The notes under the pieces were generated by a model, which made no database searches, had not been told where the DNA came from, and saw nothing but the letters and a program-made list of their open reading frames with translations. The translations under genes were made by a program, and so were the position numbers. A stretch of DNA of 64,000 nt, taken from positions 1,794 through 65,793 of the forward strand of contig DYHY01000004.1 in NCBI GenBank assembly GCA_020723935.1. Direction: 5' to 3'. This DNA is from Candidatus Micrarchaeum sp. GTDB lineage: Archaea > SpSt-1190 > DYHY01. Shown one piece after another: positions 9,514-24,036 of this stretch. The stretch's first letter is position 1; each line of letters starts with the position of its first letter.

Positions 9514-9837
9514 CTAGCCCAGGCATTCCGCATACCGGTCCGGGTGGTGGCCCATGTGCTGTCTCCACGCAGCGTCGGTGTACCCGGCGGGGGTGGCGCA
9601 CTTGTCGAGGGGGTTCTGCGCCGCGAAAGTCCGCTGCGCTTGGGCTGCCGTGTAAAGGGGCTTGGGCGCCAGAATCCCCGAAAGCGTCCAGGCGAGCGTC
9701 CCGACCGCGAAAAGGAGCAAGACTACCAGGGCTGTCGCCTTCATCGGGCCGCCGGAACTTCCCCCCCTCCCCTGCCGCCCGCCGTCTCCGTGTTCGCGCT
9801 CTTCCTTGCCCCTCCGCTCGTTCTCCATGTTTTTCAT
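9514..9837 (-). CDS. membrane-anchored small protein with GYTDAxWR...ECLG motif
   Basis: 107 aa. A charged N-terminus is followed by one membrane segment (ATALVVLLLFAVGTLAWTL, about residues 34-52), then an outside domain with CATPAGYTDAAWRQHMGHHP and a C-terminal YAECLG. Two cysteines are shared with the paralog at 9203-9497 with like spacing. The ATG at 9837 overlaps the stop of the upstream gene (ATGA), implying translational coupling; the second ATG four codons on is also possible. Function unknown, though the paired Cys suggests a disulfide or metal site. Confidence 0.75.
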   Translation of the reverse strand: MKNMENERRGKEEREHGDGGRQGRGGSSGGPMKATALVVLLLFAVGTLAWTLSGILAPKPLYTAAQAQRTFAAQNPLDKCATPAGYTDAAWRQHMGHHPDRYAECLG

Positions 9838-10442
9838 CCTCCATACCTCGCCACGTATCCTATAGCGAAAACAACCGAAATGAACGATATCGTCAGGACG
9901 ACCCGCTTGGCGTACTCCAGGTCGCGCCCGAGAAGGAAGTCGAGGAAGCCGATGCCAGTCACCCTCACGCCAGCCCTCCGGACGTACGAGAGCATCATGA
10001 AGGTCCCTAGAACGTTTGAGAATATCGTAGCGAGGAGAAACGCCGGCTGGTAGCGGAAGAAGAAGAAGCTCGTCAGGGTGGAGATTCCAATGAGGGGGAC
10101 GTCGGTCAGGTGGTGCGCGCAGCGGGCGACCATCGACGCGCCCGAGACTCCTGCGGAGCCCGCGAGCGGGGACGCACCGACCGCGACGAGGCCTGAAGCG
10201 TAGGAATAGATCCAGAACTGGAAGGCGGGGAGGGCCGAGATGACGAGGACGAAGGGCAGCATCTGCCTGAACTGGGCGACCGCGAGATCGAACGAGTTGA
10301 AGACGAGCATTATCGAGAAGTAGAGCGTGGGCATCGCTACCAGGCCTGCCAGGGCCGCCAGGGCCGCCAGGGCCGCGAGGATGCGCCCGGATTTGCCGGC
10401 GGCCTCCACCTTTCCCGGGCCCGCTTTCGTCCCCGCTTCCAT
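9834..10442 (-). CDS. hypothetical integral membrane protein
   Basis: 202 aa with about five hydrophobic segments: ILAALAALAALAGLVAMPTLY, then LPFVLVISALPAFQFWIYSY, a segment around SPLAGSAGVSG, LIGISTLTSFFFF with FLLATIFSNVLGTFMML, and VVLTISFISVVFAIGYV at the end. A single Cys-His-His cluster (ARCAHHLTDV, about residue 112) lies next to a membrane segment and could bind metal or heme. It is coupled to the downstream small gene by ATGA. No family is recognised. Confidence 0.75.
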   Translation of the reverse strand: MEAGTKAGPGKVEAAGKSGRILAALAALAALAGLVAMPTLYFSIMLVFNSFDLAVAQFRQMLPFVLVISALPAFQFWIYSYASGLVAVGASPLAGSAGVSGASMVARCAHHLTDVPLIGISTLTSFFFFRYQPAFLLATIFSNVLGTFMMLSYVRRAGVRVTGIGFLDFLLGRDLEYAKRVVLTISFISVVFAIGYVARYGG

Positions 10443-11993: not shown

Positions 11994-13172
11994 TTAAGCC
12001 TTCTTCAGCGCGGCCCTCAAATCTTCAAGCAGGTCTTCCTTCGTCTCGATCCCGACGGAGAGCCTGACGAGGCCCGGCTCGACTGCTATCTGCGAGCCCG
12101 CGGTCGACGCGTGCGTCATCGCGAGCGGCACCTCGATTAGGGACTCCACTCCCCCAAGGGACTCTGCGAGCGGGAAGAGCCGTGTGCCCTCCGCGAGCCT
12201 CCTGGCGGCCCGTGCCCCGCCCTTCATCACGACGGAGACCATCCCGCCGCCGTTCCTCATCTGCCGCTCCGCGAGGGAGTGCTGCGGATGGGACGGGAGC
12301 CCGGGGTAGAGGACGCGGGAGACCTTTGGATGGCCTTCGAGGAGCTCGGCGATTGCGAGCGCGTTCTCGGCATGCCGCTCCATCCTGACCGCGAGCGTCT
12401 TCGTCCCGCGCAGGATGAGGAAGCAGTCCATCGGGCCCGGGACCGCGCCGATGGCGTTCTGCAGGAACTTCAGGCGGGAATACATCTTCTCGTCGTTTAG
12501 GAGGAGCGCGCCCCCAACGACGTCCGAGTGGCCACCCAGGTATTTCGTCGTCGAATGGACGACGATGTCCGCCCCCAAGGAAAGGGGCCGCTGCAGGTAG
12601 GGCGTCGCGAAGGTGCTGTCGACTGCGACCTGCGGCCTCGCCCGGGACTTGCGGGCCAGATCCGATATCTCGCGTACGTCGCAGAGCGCCATGCGGGGGT
12701 TGGTCGGCGTCTCGAGCCAGACTAACTTCGTGTTCGGCAGGATGGCTTGCGCGACCGCTCCGGAATCCGATCCGTCGACATATGTGAAAGAGAGCCCGTA
12801 CTGGCGCAGGACGCGCTCGAAGAGCCGGTAGGTGCCGCCGTAGACGTCGTTGCACGCGACCACGTGGCCTTCGGGTCCTACCGTGCGGAGGACCGTGTCT
12901 ATCGCCGCCATCCCGGAGGAGAACGCGAGGCTGTGGCGCGCGCCCTCGAGCGCCGCGAGGTTCTTCTGAAGAGCCGTCCGCGTCGGGTTGTCCGTGCGCG
13001 AATAGTCGTATCCCTTGTGCTTCCCTATTCTTTCTTGGGCGTAGGTGGAAGTCAGGTAGACCGGCGTCATCACGGCGCCTGTCGACGGGTCGGGCGGCTG
13101 GCCCGCCCTGACTGCGAGAGTCTCGAATCCCTGTTCCTTCCCTTTCAGAATGCCCTTGTTCACGTAGGTCAT
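11994..13172 (-). CDS. PLP-dependent trans-sulfuration enzyme (cystathionine gamma-synthase/lyase family)
   Basis: 392 aa, full length for the Cys/Met metabolism PLP family. Family blocks seen: YDYSRTDNPTRTALQ near residue 55, SSGMAAIDTV, VVACNDVYGGTYRL, WLETPTNPRM, and HSTTKYLGGHSDVVGG, whose Lys is the PLP Schiff-base residue. The members (MetB, MetC, MccB, methionine gamma-lyase) share these motifs, so the exact substrate is not resolved; cystathionine synthesis or cleavage is most likely. Its ATG overlaps the stop of CcdA (13169) as ATGA. Placement beside thiol-redox genes suggests a link to cysteine supply. Confidence 0.93.
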   Translation of the reverse strand: MTYVNKGILKGKEQGFETLAVRAGQPPDPSTGAVMTPVYLTSTYAQERIGKHKGYDYSRTDNPTRTALQKNLAALEGARHSLAFSSGMAAIDTVLRTVGPEGHVVACNDVYGGTYRLFERVLRQYGLSFTYVDGSDSGAVAQAILPNTKLVWLETPTNPRMALCDVREISDLARKSRARPQVAVDSTFATPYLQRPLSLGADIVVHSTTKYLGGHSDVVGGALLLNDEKMYSRLKFLQNAIGAVPGPMDCFLILRGTKTLAVRMERHAENALAIAELLEGHPKVSRVLYPGLPSHPQHSLAERQMRNGGGMVSVVMKGGARAARRLAEGTRLFPLAESLGGVESLIEVPLAMTHASTAGSQIAVEPGLVRLSVGIETKEDLLEDLRAALKKA

Positions 13173-14242
13173 GTCGTTCCCCTTCCAAGCGTCTTGCTCT
13201 TTTTCTTCTTTTTCTTCTTCTTCTTCTTCTTCTCCCGCTCTTGCTCCGCGCCCCTGTTGCCGCGGAAACGCAGGACATGGGCCGCCAAAACTATCACGAG
13301 CAGGAGGAGGGCGCCCCCTAGCACCTTAGGATAGGGCCCGGAGGAAGAGGAGAGCGCCCTGCCCTGCACCGAATAGAAGTACTGCTTGAGGTGGAGGAAA
13401 TCCCAGGTGTTGACGACGGAAGTCCCCCTGAATACGACAAACGACAGGCCGATGAGCGCGAGGAACGCGCCCGACACCAGGTTCGTCGTGTGCAGCAGCA
13501 GGTCCTTCCCGAACAGGCGGACGCGCACCTCTTTTCCCCTGATAAGCGGGCTCTTCGCGAGGCCTGTGGAATCGTAGAAGACAGACAGGATGAAGAGCGG
13601 GGCGAAGATGCCCAGGGAATACGCGCCCATAAGGAGGCTAGCGTAGAGGACGTTCCCGAGGAGCGCCGCGACGGAGAGAATCCCGCTCAGTATCGGCCCG
13701 ACGCAGGCGGTCCAGCCCAGGGCGAAAAGGGTGCCGGAGACGAAGACCCCCGCGACGCCGTCGCCGCCGGGAGCCGGGGCGGTTCTCGGCCGGATGAAGG
13801 AGGAGAATCCCTTGCCGAGGGCGGTCATGATTCCCATCGCCATCAGGACGAGCCCCGCCACGAGGACGAGCTCCGGCCTCTGGAGCTTCAGGAGCGATTG
13901 CTCGCCGACGAATCCGGCGACCGCGCCGAACGCCATGAAAACCACCGCGACCCCTAGCGAGAACGCGAGGGTCATCTTCGTCACTTCCGTTTTGCCTCCC
14001 GGCCGGAAGGTGTAAGAGAAGTACGCGGGAAGGAGCGGGAGGACGCAGGGAGAGAGGAGTGTGAGGGCGCCGGCAAAGAACGCGATGAGGAAGGAGATCT
14101 TCGCCTGGAAGTCCCTGGCATAGCCCTGGTTATAGTCCTTTATCTTCTGGAGGGCCGGCGGGAGAGCCGATGCGTCCGCCGCGAGGGCGGGCGCCAGGAG
14201 GACGAGCGCCAGCAGCGCCCGGCCCAGATCCATCCTATCCAT
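13169..14242 (-). CDS. ccdA: cytochrome c biogenesis/thiol-disulfide transport protein CcdA family
   Basis: 357 aa. After a signal-like N-terminus come six to eight membrane segments. The redox cysteines lie in LLSPCVLPLLPAYFSYT and in LGWTACVGPILSG, the paired-Cys signature of CcdA/DsbD, which carry electrons from cytosolic thioredoxin across the membrane to outside acceptors. The C-terminal tail ends with an unusual block of about ten consecutive Lys followed by SKTLGRGTT. The likely partner is the thioredoxin-like protein at 14856-15840. It lies directly downstream of the CuA-motif lipoprotein. Confidence 0.93.
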   Translation of the reverse strand: MDRMDLGRALLALVLLAPALAADASALPPALQKIKDYNQGYARDFQAKISFLIAFFAGALTLLSPCVLPLLPAYFSYTFRPGGKTEVTKMTLAFSLGVAVVFMAFGAVAGFVGEQSLLKLQRPELVLVAGLVLMAMGIMTALGKGFSSFIRPRTAPAPGGDGVAGVFVSGTLFALGWTACVGPILSGILSVAALLGNVLYASLLMGAYSLGIFAPLFILSVFYDSTGLAKSPLIRGKEVRVRLFGKDLLLHTTNLVSGAFLALIGLSFVVFRGTSVVNTWDFLHLKQYFYSVQGRALSSSSGPYPKVLGGALLLLVIVLAAHVLRFRGNRGAEQEREKKKKKKKKKKKSKTLGRGTT

Positions 14243-14246
14243 CCTA

Positions 14247-14831
14247 TCAGTTCACCGCCAAGGTTCCCCTCATCAAGCTGTGCCCGGAGCCGCAGGGGCG
14301 GTTGCAGAAGAATGCGAAACGCCCCTGCCTGTCCGCGGTGAACTCGACGACGACCGGCGCGTCCCCGGGGGAGAAGGACTGCGTCGCAACCCCATAGTCG
14401 GGAAGGGTGGGGCCGTGCGTCCCCGACGTGCTTGTTAGAACGAGCCTAACGCGGTCTCCCTGGCTCACGGTTGTGGTCGACGAGTTCCAGCCGAAGGAGT
14501 ATGCCTCGACCTTTATCTCCTTCATGGGCGCCTGGCCCGCCGTCGAGGAGGTGGGCGAGCTGGAGGATGAAGAGGAGGGGGATGAAGAGGAGAGGGATGA
14601 AGAGGAAGGGGATGAAGAGGAGGGGGATGAAGAGCCCTGCGAGCTTGATGTCGAACTGGATGGACTTCCTGAGCCAGCCGAAGGCATCCCCGCGTCCTGC
14701 GCTGGCCCCGTCACGCATCCCGCGACCAGGACCGCCGCCGCCAGCAGAACGGCCGCCACAACCGCAAAGGAGGCGGCCGTCTCGGGCATAGCCTTCCCGA
14801 TGTTTCCCCTGAATCCCGATGCGTATCCCAT
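14247..14831 (-). CDS. lipoprotein with CuA-type cupredoxin domain
   Basis: 194 aa. A signal peptide ends in the lipobox-like VLVAGC (about residues 35-40), then a Ser/Pro linker of about 50 residues (SSSSPSSSS repeats), then a cupredoxin domain beginning near IKVEAYSFGWNSSTTTVSQG. The C-terminal sequence C-N-R-P-C-G-S-G-H-S-L-M is exactly the CuA pattern C-x3-C-x3-H-x2-M of cytochrome oxidase subunit II and nitrous oxide reductase. No oxidase subunit I is in the window, so a stand-alone copper or electron carrier role is inferred. The start at 14831 is favoured by the following signal sequence. Confidence 0.88.
   Translation of the reverse strand: MGYASGFRGNIGKAMPETAASFAVVAAVLLAAAVLVAGCVTGPAQDAGMPSAGSGSPSSSTSSSQGSSSPSSSSPSSSSLSSSSPSSSSSSSPTSSTAGQAPMKEIKVEAYSFGWNSSTTTVSQGDRVRLVLTSTSGTHGPTLPDYGVATQSFSPGDAPVVVEFTADRQGRFAFFCNRPCGSGHSLMRGTLAVN
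14570..14645 (+). repeat. low-complexity repeat coding the Ser/Pro linker
   Basis: Degenerate tandem units of the kind GATGAAGAGGAGGGG lie on the plus strand. In the lipoprotein on the minus strand they code for runs of Ser with spaced Pro. Such repeats are prone to length change. Confidence 0.8.
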
Positions 14832-14855: not shown

Positions 14856-15840
14856 TTATCTCTTTCCCGCCGTCCCGTTCGGAACCACGACCGAGCCGTC
14901 GGACAGGTTCCTATACGGCAGGCTGAATATCTCGACCGTCTGGAAGACGTACGTCCCGTCCCGCTCGACCGTCCCAACGTACTTCCAAGAGCCGTTCAGC
15001 GCCGGATACGCATCCACGTCGCCGTTCAGGATCGCCGTAGGGACGAGGAGTATCCCGTAGCGCGAGAGAAGCTCCTTCCCCCTCAGCCGAGAATATGTCG
15101 ACGGATTTCTCGGCTTGCACGGCCGCCCCGACCTTGGCCAAGACCTTCTTGTGTATGGGCCCGGGATCGTAGCAGGACGCGCACGAGGCGTCGCGGACTA
15201 TCGTGAGGTTGACGTACCCGACGGCCCGCCCGAGGGAAGCGTCGTAGTAAGGCGGAAGGGGTTTCTCGGCCACGTAGGCGGAACCGTCGGCTGAGAGGGG
15301 GGCCGTGCTGAAGATTCCGGGAAGGATGCCCTCGTACGCCGAAAGCTCCCCTGAGAGGACGACAGCGGGGAATTTCGAGAGGGAATACTCGAGCGCGAGC
15401 GAGCGTCCTTTGGGGGAAGACAGGTTCACCTGGCTGATGCTTCCCAAGCCCACCCCAGCTAGGCGCAGCTGGCTTAGGAACGGAAGGGAGCCCGCGCAGG
15501 ACAGGGCATAGATTACGGAAACGTTCACTATTCCTGCGACCGACCCGCTAGAGACGTCGAAGTAGAAGGGGTCTGGAGAGGAAAACACGATTGCGTCGCC
15601 AGAAAGCCTTCCGCCGGGAACCGCTTGCAGGGATTTCGCCTTCCCTATCTCGCCCGTCACGATCACCGCCGGAAGACGCGTTATCCCGTACCTGGAGATT
15701 AGGGGAGCAACCAGGGAGGAGCCGAAATCCAGGTCGTCTTGCGATGCCACCCGCACTCCGGCGGACTTGCGTATGGAATCTGCCAGGGCCGCGGGCGATG
15801 AGCACCTGCCGCAGTCGGCCTTGACTACTATGGTAGTCAT
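14856..15840 (-). pseudogene. thioredoxin-like repeat protein, frameshifted at a G5 run
   Basis: ATG at 15840 (MTTIVVKADCGRCSSPAALA) begins a protein with repeated thioredoxin-like modules. Cys positions are C-x2-C in KADCGRC, a lone Cys in YALSCAGSL and C-x2-C in RDASCASC; each module is followed by a ...LPAVIVTGE or FPAVVLSGE type cis-Pro segment. At about 15085 a run of five G shifts the frame; with one G removed it reads SAEGKELLSRYGILLVPTAI, LNGDVDAYPALNGSW and ends NGTAGKR with TAA at 14856. Likely an outside thiol oxidoreductase fed by CcdA. The N-terminal anchor may be the neighbouring frame at 15837-16109. Confidence 0.75.
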
Positions 15841-16055
15841 GGAGACGTCCGCCGGGAGGGGCGCTCCTGCTCGGTTCGGACGGCCGAGCCCAGGATTCTG
15901 GAGAGCGAGGAGGACGAGAGGAGGTCAACGGACGCGAACATGACGAGGGCCGCCGCGAGGGCGAGTACGAGGCCTTCCCTCCTAAAAACCCCGGGAGGCT
16001 CCGGCCCGCGCGATTCCGCTGCCTGCCTACTGCTCCGCCTCGTCTCCATCGCCAT
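15837..16055 (-). CDS. N-terminal membrane anchor, perhaps part of the thioredoxin-like protein
   Basis: From ATG near 16055 (MAMETRRSSRQAAESRG) a basic stretch leads to one membrane segment (LVLALAAALVMFASVDLL). The frame stops at 15837, overlapping the next ATG as ATGA. The sequence just before that ATG in the other frame (AGAPLPADVS) would join smoothly, so this may be the true N-terminus of the thioredoxin-repeat protein split by one indel. As a separate 72-aa protein its function would be unknown. A longer start at 16109 is also possible. Confidence 0.45.
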   Translation of the reverse strand: MAMETRRSSRQAAESRGPEPPGVFRREGLVLALAAALVMFASVDLLSSSSLSRILGSAVRTEQERPSRRTSP

Positions 16056-16159
16056 CTCGCAAGTATTGTGCCCCGGGGGGCGCGCTCTCTTGATTCCTGA
16101 ATAGAACAAAGGAAGGGTCTTTTTTTGGGAAACGGAAATAATCCCTCTGACGCCCTAAA

Positions 16160-16396
16160 CTAACAGCCACCCACCTGCTGGGGAAGACTCGCAAGGCTCT
16201 TGGGAACCGAGCCTCCCGACGCCGCGGCGATGCCTCCGCTGTTGCTGCCTGCGGCCTCGGACGCTGCGAAGAGCTCCCCGAGGGAAACCTTCCCGTCCGA
16301 GACCTTCGTCCTAAGCTCGTTCAGCTGGAACGTCTGCGCCGCGGAGACTACCACGAACACCGCGAGAATCGCCGCGAGTATCTTCGTCTGGTCCAT
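16160..16396 (-). CDS. small membrane-anchored protein ending in LPQQVGGC
   Basis: 78 aa. An N-terminal membrane segment (ILAAILAVFVVVSAAQTFQL) is followed by a short Ser/Gly-rich outside part and the C-terminus SLASLPQQVGGC. The last residues match those of the next gene upstream (16444-17256, SLPSQVGGC). The shared C-terminal motif with a final Cys suggests sorting, lipidation or metal binding at the C-terminus, none of which I can show. It sits 47 nt downstream of its partner, so the two are likely co-transcribed. Confidence 0.8.
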   Translation of the reverse strand: MDQTKILAAILAVFVVVSAAQTFQLNELRTKVSDGKVSLGELFAASEAAGSNSGGIAAASGGSVPKSLASLPQQVGGC

Positions 16397-16443
16397 CTTT
16401 TTTCGACACCTCCTTGTCTTTCTTCTTTCCTGATCTGATTAGC

Positions 16444-17256
16444 TTAACACCCGCCGACCTGGCTCGGGAGGCTCGCGGCGCCCGGCCCCGCGTCCCCGCC
16501 CGCCACATTGAGACCCAAGGTAACCATGTCCTTGGGGAAGAACAGGGTCTTCCACTTCATCGCCTCGTAGAGTATCTGCCCGTCGGAGTAGTTCGGCCTG
16601 TTCGCCGAGAGCCAGAGGGCCACGGAGAGCATCGCCGGGTTGTGCTGGCAGCCGCAGAGCGAGTTGCCGTTGGAGTCAGCTCCGGTCGGCCCTATCCCGC
16701 AACAGTACTCGCAGGAAATGCCGACCGGCTTGGTAGCGAAGCCTATGAACCTCTGGAACGCCTCAGGGTTGTTCTTCTTTACGTCGTCCTTGAGGCTCGG
16801 ATAGGATTTCGCGAGGAGGTCGAGCGACTTTATCGGGTCGTCGAAGCTCACTCCCATCTCGGTGCCGTACTCGGGGGTGCCCGTCGGGAACATCGCCGCC
16901 ATCGCCCCATCGGCCGTCTTCATCTTGTCGAGGGGGAAGACCGCGGCGATCGTGTCGGCCGTGGATTTTATCTTCGAGACGTCAACCTTGGAGAGGTCAG
17001 CTCCGTCGGAGCTCCCGGCCTGGAGGACGCTCGAGAGAAACCCTATCGAGGGCCCTTTGGCCCCGCCGCTGCCGTAGAGGGCGCCGGATATCGCGAATAT
17101 CTGGGCCTGGTTGACTGCGAGGAGTATCGCCGCTATGACAATGAGCGCTATCACCGGGGCGCCCAGCCTCATCGCGCCGGATTCCCTCTCTGCCGCCCCC
17201 TTCTCGGGAGCTGCCTTGGCCGCAGTAGCTTGCGTAGCATGATGCCTTTCCGCCAT
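16444..17256 (-). CDS. membrane-anchored PCYCGC-like protein ending in LPSQVGGC
   Basis: 270 aa. One membrane segment (VIALIVIAAILLAVNQAQIF, about residues 34-53) is followed by an outside domain. The core has ISCEYCCGIG near residue 182 and SLCGCQHNPAM about 20 residues on, a Cys pattern resembling the PCYCGC lipoprotein family, then WKTLFFPKDMV and a C-terminal SLPSQVGGC. Several Cys and His are placed to bind a metal. It is divergent from the membrane sensor at 17320, with a shared promoter region, suggesting that the sensor may control it. Confidence 0.82.
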   Translation of the reverse strand: MAERHHATQATAAKAAPEKGAAERESGAMRLGAPVIALIVIAAILLAVNQAQIFAISGALYGSGGAKGPSIGFLSSVLQAGSSDGADLSKVDVSKIKSTADTIAAVFPLDKMKTADGAMAAMFPTGTPEYGTEMGVSFDDPIKSLDLLAKSYPSLKDDVKKNNPEAFQRFIGFATKPVGISCEYCCGIGPTGADSNGNSLCGCQHNPAMLSVALWLSANRPNYSDGQILYEAMKWKTLFFPKDMVTLGLNVAGGDAGPGAASLPSQVGGC

Positions 17257-17319: not shown

Positions 17320-19068
17320 GTGAAAGAAGGGGAAAACCAGCCTGCCGCGCAGCAGCGGGGCGTTTTCGCGAGCCAGAGGTCGGTCCTGGCGCTCTCCTTG
17401 GCGCTCCTCCTGATGGGCGCGGTGGTCCTGGTGAACTTCCTGTCCTTCTCCAAGGTCGGGGGGGTTATGGAAAGCCAGCTCCTGGACCGCCAGCAGATAG
17501 CGGCCGACTACGCGGCGTCAAGGATCGAGGAGCACATCCATCAGGTCAGTATGGAGGTGACGACGCTTTCCAGCTTCCCCGCGCTGAAGAACCTCGACCT
17601 GAGCCAGTGCAGCGGGGACGTGAAAATAATACACCCCAGCCTCGAGGGCAAGACGAAGGTACTCCTGCGGGTTGACGCTCTCGGGAACATCGTGGAATGC
17701 TCGTCCCCGAATTACAAGGGATACGTTGGCTTGAACGTCAGGAACAAGGACTATTTCAAAGTCCCGGCCGAGACGGGGGCTTCCTATGTCTCGGGCCTCG
17801 CGAGGGACGGGAGCGACTACAATGTCTTCGTCTCCGCCCCCATCTTCGAGGGGGGGTCTGGAGGAACATACCCCAATAACGGCGAGTTCGGGGGAATACT
17901 CCTAAGCATCGTGGGCCTCCAGGACCTCTACGACCTCTACATACACCCAATAGGGCCGATGGGCAGGGACCTCTTCGTCCTCGCGAGCGTGGATGCGGGC
18001 GACACCGTGATGAAAAGCCAGGGCGCCCCTGACCTGGGCGGCCTCGGCAAGGTGCACGAGATAAGGGATTATGCCGGGACGGGCAGGACCATAGCCGTCT
18101 CCTCCGACCTCTCCCTCGGGAGCGAGAAGTTTCGCCTCTTCATCCTCACACCCCTCGCCAACGCAGACAAGGAGATACGGGACGTCAGAGCGGGCTACCT
18201 GTTCTCCCTGTTCTTGGCCGTTTCGGCCATCCTGGGCGCCCTCCTTCTCGCGGCTTCGGCGTACCTGTCGCGCGAGAGGATAAGGACGCAGCTCGCGCGG
18301 ACCACAGAGACGCTCGAGAGCCTCGGGATCACGGTCGAGACGGAACGGAGCGGATATTCTCCTACCGACATCGTCCTCGAGCCCCACAAGGTCTACCTCC
18401 TTAAGGAGGACGGGGAGACGAGCCCCCACGACCTCTTCATTGGGATGCTCTCACATGGCTTCGCGGGCCTCGGCATAGTGAGGGACGACCCCAGGGAGCT
18501 GCGGAAGAAGTACAGCCTCAAGAAGACTTCGTTCATATGGCTCTCGGAGGCGGGCGGGGGCCGGGGCGTCCCGGCCGAGACCAAGATCGAGACGCTCCTC
18601 GGCCTCGCCAGGGAGTTTGTGGAGAGGAGCGAGAAGAGCGTCATATTGATAGACCGGCTCGACTACCTGATATTCGAGAACGGCTTCGAGCGGGTCCTCA
18701 AGGCGGTGTACGCCCTCCGCGACCTCGTCGCGAGGAGGAAGTGCGTCGTGATAATCTCGGCCAACCCCGCGGTCATACCCAAGGAGCAGATGGAGGCGTT
18801 CAGCGCGGAGACGATCGACCTCTTCGGCGGCAGGGCCGGGGCCGGCCTCTCCAAGGACGAGGCCGAGCTGCTCTCGTTCGTGAACGAGGGGAACGTCGCG
18901 AGCAGGCTCGTCTCCTACACGGACGTGACGGAGCAGCTTGGGATAACGAAGCCCACCGCCCGAGCCAAGATCCGGCGCCTGCAGGACGCGGGCTTCCTCT
19001 CCGTCGAGAAGGTCGGGCGGGTGAAGGCCGTGCGGATAACGTCCCTGGGCAGGAAAATCATTTCCTGA
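17320..19068 (+). CDS. membrane sensor: PDC/Cache domain, DUF835 and winged helix
   Basis: 582 aa from GTG 17320. Membrane segment one (about residues 22-42) and two (about 290-315) bracket an extracytoplasmic PDC/Cache-like sensor (RNKDYFKVPAETG and later ...VGLQDLYDLY). The cytoplasmic part holds a DUF835 domain (VYLLKEDGETSPHDLFIGML to VVIISANPAVIPKEQMEAF, about 360-500), related to P-loop-less ATPase-like archaeal signalling domains, and ends in a winged helix (VTEQLGITKPTARAKIRRLQ, about 510-580). This architecture suggests a one-component membrane regulator. A divergent promoter faces the LPSQVGGC genes. Confidence 0.88.
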   Translation: MKEGENQPAAQQRGVFASQRSVLALSLALLLMGAVVLVNFLSFSKVGGVMESQLLDRQQIAADYAASRIEEHIHQVSMEVTTLSSFPALKNLDLSQCSGDVKIIHPSLEGKTKVLLRVDALGNIVECSSPNYKGYVGLNVRNKDYFKVPAETGASYVSGLARDGSDYNVFVSAPIFEGGSGGTYPNNGEFGGILLSIVGLQDLYDLYIHPIGPMGRDLFVLASVDAGDTVMKSQGAPDLGGLGKVHEIRDYAGTGRTIAVSSDLSLGSEKFRLFILTPLANADKEIRDVRAGYLFSLFLAVSAILGALLLAASAYLSRERIRTQLARTTETLESLGITVETERSGYSPTDIVLEPHKVYLLKEDGETSPHDLFIGMLSHGFAGLGIVRDDPRELRKKYSLKKTSFIWLSEAGGGRGVPAETKIETLLGLAREFVERSEKSVILIDRLDYLIFENGFERVLKAVYALRDLVARRKCVVIISANPAVIPKEQMEAFSAETIDLFGGRAGAGLSKDEAELLSFVNEGNVASRLVSYTDVTEQLGITKPTARAKIRRLQDAGFLSVEKVGRVKAVRITSLGRKIIS

Positions 19069-20424: not shown

Positions 20425-21366
20425 ATGACTTCCACTGGCGCCTACATTTTCTCGTACCTGCTCTATATGGCGGTGCTCTCGGGCGCCGCCCTCTACGTCT
20501 GGAAGTACAGGAAGGGCCTCGACGAGATGTACGGCATGATGATGGGAATGACGTTTGGCACGGTCGCAGGTCTTGCGACCGGCCTCTTCTACGCCCTCCC
20601 GAGCGGCGACTTTGTCGGCGGGGCGATTGTCGGGACCGTGGCCGGGCTCCTCTTCGGGATACTGCTAGGGGTGATCGGCGGGCCCCTCGGGATAATGGAG
20701 GGCGTTATGGGCGCCTTCATGGGGGGCTTCATGGGCTCGATGACGGGGCAGATGGCGCGCCCGTTCCCGCTGGGCGCGTTCTCTCCGGTCTTCGCGGCGA
20801 TATTCCTCGCGATGATGGCGGGGATCACCTATGCCGCGGAAACGGGCAAGACCTGCTGCGCTCCCGCGGGGGGTAAGCCGGAGGCGCCCGAGAGGCCGAA
20901 GCTGGTGAACCCGTCGGGCAAGTTCGTCGCCACGTGGACAGTCGTCGCCGCAATCCTCCTCTTCGCGAGCTTCGCGATAGACCTCTCGCCGTACTCCGCA
21001 CAGGGCGCCCAGTCGACTGGCACGCAGAGCACGGCTCTTCCGGCGTCGCTTCGGGCGCTCACGGAGGAGCAGCAGACCCAGGCAGTCCAAAAGGACGGCT
21101 ACCAGGAAGCGTCATTTAGGGTGACCGCGGGGAGGTACACGCCTAACGTCATAGTCGTCAAGGCTGGGACGCCGCTTAGGCTGAACATCGCAGCAGACAG
21201 GAACGCCGGATGCGGGACTGACATCGTCTTCCCGGATCTCAGGGTGCGCTCGCTCATCCCCCCGGGGACGTCCAAGACGGTCGAGGTGGGGACCCCGTCC
21301 GCGGGGAACCATTCGTTCTCCTGCTCCATGGGCATGTTCCGCGGAAAAATCGTCGCGGTCGGTTAG
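20425..21366 (+). CDS. membrane protein with C-terminal cupredoxin domain
   Basis: 313 aa. The N-terminal part has four to five Gly/Met-rich membrane segments (MYGMMMGMTFGTVAGLATGL; GGPLGIMEGVMGAFMGGFMG), then a TCCAPAGG loop, another membrane helix near residue 175, and a C-terminal cupredoxin (ASFRVTAGRYTPNVIVVKAG to NHSFSCSMGMFRGKIVAVG, about 230-313). The Cys and Met near the end (SFSCSMGM) and the earlier GCGTD are candidate copper ligands. It overlaps no neighbour and is 2 nt after the previous gene, so it is in one operon with CopA. Confidence 0.88.
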   Translation: MTSTGAYIFSYLLYMAVLSGAALYVWKYRKGLDEMYGMMMGMTFGTVAGLATGLFYALPSGDFVGGAIVGTVAGLLFGILLGVIGGPLGIMEGVMGAFMGGFMGSMTGQMARPFPLGAFSPVFAAIFLAMMAGITYAAETGKTCCAPAGGKPEAPERPKLVNPSGKFVATWTVVAAILLFASFAIDLSPYSAQGAQSTGTQSTALPASLRALTEEQQTQAVQKDGYQEASFRVTAGRYTPNVIVVKAGTPLRLNIAADRNAGCGTDIVFPDLRVRSLIPPGTSKTVEVGTPSAGNHSFSCSMGMFRGKIVAVG

Positions 21367-21396: not shown

Positions 21397-24036
21397 GTGA
21401 AAATGGCGATGGAAAAGGATCCTATATGCGGCATGAATGTCGACCCGCGGACCGCGAGGTTCAAGGGCGAGAAGAGTGGGAGGACATACTACTTCTGCAG
21501 CAAGTCCTGCATGGACGCTTTCCTGGGGGGCGGCGAGGAGGGCGTGGGGGAAGAGGGGCGCCATCGCGGCGACGGGGAACCGGAATCCGGGAAGGAAGAA
21601 GGACTCCCGCAAAAAGGCCCGCCGAAGAGGATGTTCAGGATAAAGGGCATGCACTGCGCTAGCTGCGCGATAACGATAGAGAACAACCTCAAGAAGCTCC
21701 CAGACACCAGGGCGAGCGTCAACTACGCCTCCGAGAAGGCCTATGTCGAGGGGCCCGCGACCGACGCGCGGGTCATGGCGCGCGTGAAGGAGGCTGGCTA
21801 CGAGGCGATCCCGGCTTCCGACAGGCCGGGGGAGATGGTCCTTGAGATATCCGGGATGGATTCCATGCACTGCGTCGGGATCGTCGAGAGCTCGCTCAAG
21901 CGCGTGCACGGGGTCTCCGAAGTCAAGGTCAACCTCGCCACGGGCAAGGCGAGGGTCGCGTTCGACCCGGCAAGGGCCCATGCAAGCGACCTCGTCAAGG
22001 CTGTGAAAGCCGTCGGCTACGGCGCGATGGCGTCTAGCGAGAAGCGCGACGAGCACGCCGAGGAGCAGCGGGCGGAGATACGCTCCTACCTCTCCCGGAT
22101 AGCGGTATCTTTCTTCTTCGCAATCCCTCTCCTCTACCTCTCGATGGGGATGCTCGTGGGCCTCCCGGTGCCGGAGTTCAAACCGTTCGAGCTGGGGCTC
22201 CTGGAGCTGGCGCTCGCTACGCCTGTGATAGTCGCGGGCCGGGGCTTCTACACGCGCGGCTTCAAGTCGCTCGCGAACCTCACGCCCAACATGGATTCTC
22301 TCGTCGCCATAGGGACGGGGGCTGCATACGTCTACAGCGTCTACGGCGTCGTCTCAGCGTACTACGGCGCGTCGCCGGAATACTATTTCGAGGTATCCGC
22401 GCTCCTGATAGCTTTCATACTCCTCGGGAAATACCTGGAATCGGCCGCAAAGGGCAGGACGTCGGAAGCGATAAAGAAGCTAATCGGCCGGCAGGCCAAG
22501 ACGGCGACCGTCGTCCATCACGGAGTCGAGACCGAGATCCCAATAGAGGAAGTGGCGATCGGCGACATCGTCATCGTCAAGCCCGGCCAGAAGATACCTG
22601 TGGACGGGACCGTCACCGAAGGGAGGTCCACCGTCGACGAGAGCATGATAACGGGCGAGAGCGTCCCCGTCGGGAAGGGCCCGGGGGACGCCGTGATAGG
22701 TGCGACGATGAATAAGACCGGCGCCTTCAGGTTCAAGGCAGAGAAGATAGGCGCCGACACGATGCTCGCGCAGATAGTGCGGATGGTTGAGGAGGCTCAG
22801 GGATCCAAGGCGCCGATACAGGCGCTCGCCGACAGGGTCTCGGCCTATTTCGTCCCGGCGGTCGTCGGAATCGCCCTCGTATCTTTCCTCGCGTGGCTCT
22901 TCCTCGCGGGCAAGCCGTTCCCGTTCGCCCTCACGATATTCATATCCGTCCTGATAATCGCCTGTCCCTGCGCCCTGGGCCTCGCGACGCCCACGGCCGT
23001 GATGATGGGGACGGAGAAGGGGGCCGAGAACGGGATACTCATCAAGACGGCCGAGGCCCTGCAGATGGCCGGGAGCGTCGGAACGGTCGTCTTCGACAAG
23101 ACCGGGACTCTCACAAAGGGCGAGCCTTCCGTGCCGGACGTCGCAACGGTCGCAGGCGGCGAGGAGAACGACGCCCTCGACTACGCGGCGGCCATAGAGA
23201 AGAACTCCGAGCATCCCCTGGGCGAAGCGATAGTGAGGTTCGCCGCCGAGAAGGGCATAAGGCCGGAGGCCGTGAACGAGTTCAGCTCGATCACGGGGAA
23301 GGGCATCAAGGCGTTCTACAGGAACAAGCTAGTGCACCTGGGCAACAGGGCGCTCATGGATTCGGAGGGGATCCCCTACCGCGCGTACGAGGACAAGACG
23401 TCCGGGCTCGAGGGCGAGGGGAAGACAGTCATGTTCCTCGCGGTCGACAGGAAGGTGATCTCGCTCATCGCGGTCGCGGACACCCTCAAGGAGCATTCGA
23501 AGGAGGCCGTCGCCGAGCTCGGGAGGCTCGGGATAGAGACGGCCATGATAACGGGCGACAACGAGCGGACGGCCAAGGCGATAGCCTCGCAGGTCGGGAT
23601 AAAGACCGTCCTCGCGCAGGTCCTTCCCGGCGAGAAGGCCGAGAAGGTGAAGAGCCTCCAGGAGGGGGGGAAGCGCAAGGTCGCGATGGTCGGGGACGGG
23701 ATAAACGACGCGCCCGCGCTCACCCAGGCAGACGTGGGGATAGCGATAGGCTCAGGGACCGACGTCGCGATCGAGTCAGGGGGGATAGTCCTCGTCAAGG
23801 ACGACCTGCGCGACGTCGTGAAGGCGATACGCCTGAGCAAGTACACGATGGGGAAGATCAGGCAGAACCTCTTCTGGGCGTTCTTCTACAACCTGATCGG
23901 GATTCCGGTGGCCGCGGGCGCGCTCTTCCCGTTCACGGGCGGGCTGCTCAACCCCGTGGTAGCCGGCGCCGCCATGGCTTTCAGCAGCGTGAGCGTTGTC
24001 ACGAACACGCTGACTATGAAGGGGTTCAAGTTGTAG
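21397..24036 (+). CDS. copA: copper-exporting P1B-type ATPase with YHS and two HMA domains
   Basis: 879 aa. Order: YHS domain (KDPICGM...YYFCSKSC, residues 7-42), linker, HMA1 with GMHCASC (Cys87, Cys90), HMA2 with GMDSMHC (first Cys replaced by Ser156, Cys159 kept), then the P-type core with the CPC transport motif ([18 protein letters not shown]), phosphorylation site [13 protein letters not shown]-like [10 protein letters not shown] and [10 protein letters not shown]. These mark a Cu(I)/Ag(I) exporter. GTG 21397, ATG 21403 or ATG 21409 could be the start; a purine-rich ribosome site precedes all three. The YHS fusion matches the small YHS protein at 10714. Confidence 0.96.

Follow-up and report, generated by a model that had tools for sequence, protein, structure and literature searches.

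Two neighboring genes of the window, the 64,000-nucleotide stretch of DNA analyzed here, encode small predicted membrane-anchored proteins whose C-termini share a short motif with cysteine as the last residue. These proteins, which we call VgcA and VgcB as working labels, are an undescribed two-protein system that matches no curated family. The tailed pair recurs in well over 100 further genomes of archaea, many of them from small-genome lineages (sizes mostly 0.5 to 2 Mb; the surveyed genomes are mostly draft assemblies). A genome assigned to the same domain as the host encodes a ribosomal protein P1 of archaeal type, in line with an archaeal host. From the computed features, namely, the conserved pair and its gene order, the matching tails, the conservation of the thiols, the related anchors, and the copper and thiol genes in the neighborhood, we give about even odds to a reading in which VgcA and VgcB each form one half of a membrane-tethered thiol relay outside the cytoplasm, most probably one for Cu(I), with association as the functional basis.

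The VgcA/VgcB pair in the window

Both open reading frames lie on the minus strand, separated by 47 bases (Table 1), which bears out the first-pass annotation of two adjacent proteins ending in SLPQQVGGC and SLPSQVGGC. As read from the open reading frames, the longer protein, VgcA, ends in SLPSQVGGC (...GAASLPSQVGGC, stop codon TAA) and VgcB ends in SLPQQVGGC (...SLASLPQQVGGC, stop codon TAG), the last residue of VgcB being its sole cysteine. The codons that specify the two tails are unlike (CAGGTGGGTGGCTGT versus CAGGTCGGCGGGTGT). In the 1.14-Mb genome, QVGGC followed by a stop occurs at exactly two sites, those of VgcA and VgcB, and a reversed control pattern occurs at none. Since the tail is retained by homologues of VgcA and of VgcB in other genera, its presence in both is not due to chance.

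Table 1. Coordinates of VgcA, VgcB, their parts, and selected neighboring genes in the window
Feature	Position	Strand	Description and basis
VgcA (working label), 270 aa	16444..17256	-	N-terminal TM helix, linker, core domain C-x2-CC...C-x-C-x-H, C-terminal tail LPSQVGGC; ORF, sequence, homologues
VgcA transmembrane anchor, NQxQI end	17101..17166	-	Hydrophobicity; profile match to VgcB anchor
VgcA core Cys/His cluster, residues C182 to H205 (CEYCC...CGCQH)	16642..16713	-	Invariant in alignment
VgcA tail SLPSQVGGC codons	16447..16473	-	Stop at 16444-16446
VgcB (working label), 78 aa	16160..16396	-	Small one-TM protein, flexible linker, tail LPQQVGGC; ORF, sequence
VgcB transmembrane anchor, AQTFQL end	16325..16381	-	Hydrophobicity, profile comparison
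VgcB tail SLPQQVGGC codons	16163..16189	-	Stop at 16160-16162
Thioredoxin-like repeat protein, next gene after VgcB	14857..16109	-	Weak Thioredoxin_3 match
Cupredoxin, CuA-type motif C-x3-C-x3-H-x2-M	14247..14831	-	COX2 profile; L-NosZ and CoxB domain matches
DsbD/CcdA-type thiol electron transporter	13169..14242	-	Pfam DsbD_TM 8e-18
dCache + DUF835 + winged-helix protein, divergent gene	17320..19068	+	Pfam; similar protein near ~9 of 141 loci
Recurrent unnamed membrane protein, family C12	19156..19755	+	Near 20 of 141 loci
Multi-TM protein, C-terminal cupredoxin-like domain	20425..21366	+	Sequence; clustered with copper proteins; no NCBIfam match
CopA copper-translocating P-type ATPase, YHS and heavy-metal domains	21397..24036	+	TIGR01511 643 bits versus cut-off 397

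The thioredoxin-repeat gene runs through three frames with two apparent frameshifts (at about 15.85 and 15.06 kb) and its homologues are intact, so it carries sequencing errors or has decayed. The CuA-type cupredoxin is an orphan, the host genome being without heme-copper oxidase subunit I. The divergently transcribed dCache protein is a possible membrane sensor-regulator of the cluster. Positions 9834-10442 encode a membrane protein with a ARCAHHLTDVPLIG motif, apparently a member of the CCAHH family, which is found repeatedly near VgcA loci.

Distribution and pairing among archaeal genomes

A profile of the VgcA domain recovered the protein from 26 of 394 widely drawn genomes, from 19 of 87 genomes of a second phylum, and from 103 of 371 (about 28%) of a third, large archaeal phylum. 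Among 10 genomes of the host phylum, VgcA is present in three others, where it is fused to an N-terminal CPSCG membrane domain and always ends in MVGGC; two of these have a VgcB with the same MVGGC ending, and the contig of the third stops short of the VgcB position. Other matches to VGGC plus stop in this phylum (in G001, G002, and G004 and one more each in G000 and G005) do not belong to the system. The viral contigs searched contained no relative, and the sole match of the contig search, on a Spirochaetes contig (L004), was dismissed as a chance hit in a TonB-receptor-like frame.

The analysis of pairing used 144 VgcA frames from the locus DNA whose C-x2-CC...C-x-C-x-H core is intact. This set includes related lineages, so that the counts are not independent events; tree-based counting was applied to the switches to Q only. 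The tail is present on 125 of the 144 proteins; the motif, which might have been confined to the window, is thus not absent from other genomes. A short one-TM tailed protein follows downstream on the same strand at 133 of the 144 loci and is never found upstream or on the opposite strand (0 in each case). Of the 11 loci without VgcB, 5 are no more than 450 bases away from the end of a contig, and some of the rest are on short contigs. Each locus has only the two tailed proteins, occasionally with a second VgcB.

The two tails of a locus also match each other. All 114 tailed pairs have the same tail core in both partners (109 MVGGC/MVGGC, 3 QVGGC/QVGGC, 1 MAGGC/MAGGC, and 1 MAGACG/MAGSCG), and none of the 114 is mismatched, though the search pattern permitted it. 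Well-supported branches of a VgcA tree built without the tails require at least three independent switches from M to Q, every one of them shared by both partners. Because the tails of a pair match and the Q switches are independent, both tails probably meet the same contact, which could be the partner tail, the core of VgcA, or some third protein.

Several outlying sequences were also observed. A divergent VgcA-like protein (L102:12800-13366) is without the first core Cys, ends in SGAGACG, and has no VgcB of its own, and stray VgcA-like copies without an intact core occur at L234:5485-6099 and in L166. A 56-residue one-TM frame ending in SALPSMVGGC (L106:1958-2125), from a 3.6-Mb genome (G331) that is without VgcA and has DUF411, is either a chance match or a lone VgcB.

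Specificity of the tail

The motif is enriched at C-termini and is not as common within proteins, two checks that the first-pass annotation had proposed. In the 26 VgcA genomes, the 15-base pattern coding for MVGGC has 38 sites, 37 of which stand directly before a stop, at the VgcA locus. Across the 394 genomes, MVGGC plus stop gave 43 matches versus 8 for the reversed control, with 37 of the 43 in VgcA genomes (Fisher p = 2e-23, by genomes). Sortase (PF04203) was detected in none of 40 genomes (3 of 14 controls were positive), and the tail motif forms the last residues, with none of the following TM helix that is the archaeosortase/PGF-CTERM trait. Given that 37 of the 38 MVGGC sites sit at the VgcA locus, the tail is not a genome-wide sorting or lipidation signal; with the tail almost confined to the locus pair and no sortase in 40 genomes, a general signal of this kind was rejected. 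Of the proposal of a C-terminal signal, what stands is a conserved functional feature, for which thiol or metal chemistry is the best reading; sorting and lipidation find no support, given two carriers per locus and no sortase in the genomes searched.

Recent duplication or gene conversion was likewise rejected as the source of the matching tails. In 99 pairs, the partners differ at 225 of 396 synonymous tail positions (57%) versus 66% expected for independent codons, and VgcA and VgcB are therefore not the recent copies that had been considered as an alternative.

Conserved thiols, flexible arm, and related anchors

The five Cys and one His of the C-x2-CC...C-x-C-x-H core are invariant in all 41 aligned VgcA sequences, including two tail-less ones. 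Over the stretch that begins 60 residues ahead of the core and runs to the C-terminus, tailed VgcA always has six Cys (125/125), five in the core and one in the tail, and tail-less VgcA always has five (19/19). In VgcB, the tail Cys is the single one that follows the TM helix (145/145). These fixed counts leave no room for additional thiols, as thiol chemistry would predict. In tailed proteins the tail Cys is never replaced, while the adjoining G varies to A, S, R, or E. All 19 tail-less VgcA proteins keep a tailed VgcB, which makes the VgcB tail the constant element of the pair, and this tail may stand in for the missing one of VgcA. A short lipoprotein-like frame with YVGGGCGVAP, present at five loci (L217:3708-3920), possibly holds a further tail-like thiol motif.

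The VgcB arm has about 48 residues, with a high content of Ser, Ala, Gly, Thr, and Gln, and resembles a flexible tether. The two proteins had been described as otherwise unlike, a view that the anchors contradict. With the tails removed, the N-terminal anchors of VgcA and VgcB matched in profile-profile comparison with 94.9% probability (E = 4e-8) versus at most 24% for ten other locus families, and a search with the VgcA profile directly recovered one VgcB anchor (E = 5e-4). The two may be ancient paralogues, of which VgcA gained or VgcB lost the core domain. Some VgcB proteins (L095:668-937 and L099:7746-8063) have a CC-containing, His- or Lys-rich segment N-terminal of the TM helix, perhaps a cytoplasmic metal site.

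In the 41-sequence alignment, no compensating core residue was found in the three Q-tail lineages, which lends no support to a contact between tail and core. A single-sequence AF2 model of VgcA, made without an alignment, had a pLDDT of 40.

Gene neighborhood across loci

Genes within 5 kb were counted at 141 VgcA loci, as raw numbers without a random-locus background. The most frequent were a membrane MarR-type regulator (79), thioredoxin repeats (64), and an AHCPLCT membrane protein (58), followed by CcdA/DsbD (47), CopG/DUF411 (42), a CCAHH membrane protein (42), cupredoxins (33), and P-type ATPases (26); a DsbA-like thioredoxin family also recurs. Where 3 kb of sequence was available on each side (86 loci), copper-type genes were present at 52 loci and thiol-transfer genes at 51; 75 loci had at least one of the two kinds, and 11 had none of the listed families. 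No enzyme family is present at every pair among the 141 loci, and the suggested co-occurrence with one candidate enzyme family was not borne out.

Close to VgcB, the thioredoxin-repeat family lies at most 700 bp downstream in 48 of 145 cases and CopG/DUF411 within 700 bp in 40 of 145. Tails of the LP type accompany thioredoxin repeats and CcdA, and tails of the G type accompany CopG, AHCPLCT, and CCAHH. DUF411 was found in 11 of the 26 genomes with VgcA versus 12 of the 368 others (Fisher p = 9e-9, phylogeny ignored). CopG binds a Cys-bridged Cu4 cluster and is a proposed copper oxidoreductase that interconverts and passes on copper (PMC7558416, PMC8456105). BlaI/CopY-type repressor and BlaR1/M48-type peptidase families also occur near VgcA loci (16 each; L159:2223-2609 and L226:6641-7417), possibly for copper-responsive control.

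Relation to known families and systems

Searches of Pfam and NCBIfam with 26 VgcA members, the core pieces also taken alone, gave nothing above noise or the curated cut-offs, and VgcA matched no PDB sequence. With 21 VgcB members, scattered weak matches were obtained, none at a curated cut-off and none to SaoC (NF040734). In the literature library searched, no relevant paper names the motif, the matches to "MVGGC" being unrelated. The proposal of an undescribed surface-attachment or cofactor system thus stands for the undescribed system; surface attachment is not supported, both proteins being already anchored.

The nearest parallels are in working principle. DsrC carries its penultimate Cys on a flexible C-terminal arm that swings into the active site of its partner (PMC3397948), and DsrC/TusE thus resembles VgcA/VgcB in having a single catalytic thiol at the end of such an arm. 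However, DsrC/TusE is cytoplasmic, has a globular body and no TM anchor, carries sulfur, and has no tail shared by two proteins; no sequence relation was found, the NCBIfam scans of VgcA and VgcB giving no match to a TIGR03342-type domain. SaoC, a (seleno)protein termed "Cys-Cys-COOH" and encoded in presumed metal-resistance clusters (PMC13188914), is similar in its thiol or selenol C-terminus and its presumed neighborhood, but it ends in Cys-Cys or Cys-Sec and is part of an ABC-transporter system.

CopG/CutG (DUF411) and CutF share with VgcA/VgcB an extracytoplasmic, Cys-based handling of copper, a small partner protein, and a similar gene neighborhood, CopG often being adjacent to the pair. 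Their motifs are unlike those of VgcA/VgcB, CutF having C-x3-C and a proline-rich end (PMC8456105), and neither VgcA nor VgcB matched PF04214, so that both stand outside DUF411, which is encoded by a separate neighboring gene. PCYCGC proteins (PF13798), also Cys/His rich and extracytoplasmic, have members in some VgcA clusters, but comparison of the one PCYCGC frame used with the VgcA core gave a probability of 0.3%. With profile comparisons weak or nil, kinship of the core with PCYCGC or PCCGK/DUF1573 proteins was rejected. LPXTG and archaeosortase signals are likewise short C-terminal motifs; the VgcA/VgcB tail differs in having no following TM helix or basic end, two carriers per locus, and no sortase.

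Proposed mechanism and alternatives

A Cu(I) thiol relay is favored because the tail Cys is kept while its flanks drift, there is no other thiol outside, VgcB is little but a tethered thiol, and the neighbors are copper and thiol genes. From these features we infer topology, the identity of the metal, a direct contact between tail and cluster, and the possible directions of transfer. VgcA and VgcB would be held in the membrane by their related TM helices, probably side by side. VgcB would be no more than an anchor bearing a flexible arm, rich in Ser, Ala, and Gly, with a single thiol at its end; VgcA would combine an anchor with the five-Cys/one-His domain and, in most cases, a thiol arm of the same kind. 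This arm thiol would take up Cu(I) delivered via CopA or CopG (DUF411) and pass it to the VgcA cluster, or accept it from there, either in cis or in trans, while thioredoxin repeats with DsbD/CcdA, or CopG, would maintain the proper redox state of the thiols and of copper. We hold with middling confidence that interchangeable Cys-ended arms, which change together, swing Cu(I) (or electrons) to or from a five-Cys/one-His cluster outside the cell in an undescribed and widespread archaeal two-protein system. A metal-binding role for the Met at position -5 would be hard to reconcile with its replacement by Gln in both proteins, which speaks against a Cu(I) relay; given this replacement, the Met is probably not an essential ligand.

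It is possible, albeit unlikely, that the relay is purely one of thiols and disulfides, in which short-lived disulfides link the arm Cys to the VgcA cluster and to thioredoxin- or DsbA-like partners, so that electrons, and no metal, are moved. Terminal-thiol arms that make such transient disulfides to move electrons are found in known enzymes, and the thioredoxin repeats after VgcB, DsbD/CcdA, and the DsbA-like family at VgcA loci fit this chemistry. However, it gives no account of the CopA, CopG, and cupredoxin neighbors, the C-x2-CC...C-x-C-x-H cluster resembles a metal site, and the G-tail loci, which have CopG and AHCPLCT, seldom have DsbD/CcdA (4/34).

Less probable is a role in maturation of the binuclear CuA site on the adjoining cupredoxin, where VgcA and VgcB would donate copper and thioredoxin and DsbD would reduce the site Cys, a Sco/PCuAC-like job without an oxidase. 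The cupredoxin beside DsbD in the window, with its CuA-type motif, and those near 33 of 141 loci agree with such a role, yet most loci are without a cupredoxin in the stretch examined. Heme-copper oxidase subunit I (PF00115) had no match in 24 of the 26 VgcA genomes and was fragmentary in the other 2. With no COX1 in most VgcA genomes, a role in oxidase assembly itself was rejected.

We consider it slightly more doubtful still that the tail is a docking peptide by which both proteins bind one pocket of a third protein, such as CopA or the AHCPLCT protein, with the Cys serving recognition only. A shared pocket predicts the concerted change of both tails, but no third family is present at every locus, and it is the Cys that is never replaced in tailed proteins when the adjoining G is. 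A C-terminal processing signal for sorting, lipidation, or envelope cross-linking is very improbable, since the tail, although a short conserved sequence at the exact C-terminus, is confined to the locus pair (37 of 38 sites) in proteins already anchored in the membrane, with no sortase in 40 genomes and no co-conserved enzyme.

Significance

Through this analysis, a curious C-terminal motif becomes a defined and testable system, present in about 28% of the sampled genomes of one large archaeal phylum. Its carriers are archaea with tiny genomes, whose handling of metals and thiols outside the cytoplasm is poorly understood. The matched tail variants and the nineteen natural losses amount to a natural experiment that shows what is essential. 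Moreover, the VgcA profile, together with a downstream one-Cys TM protein, provides a handle for annotating genes that at present match no curated family.
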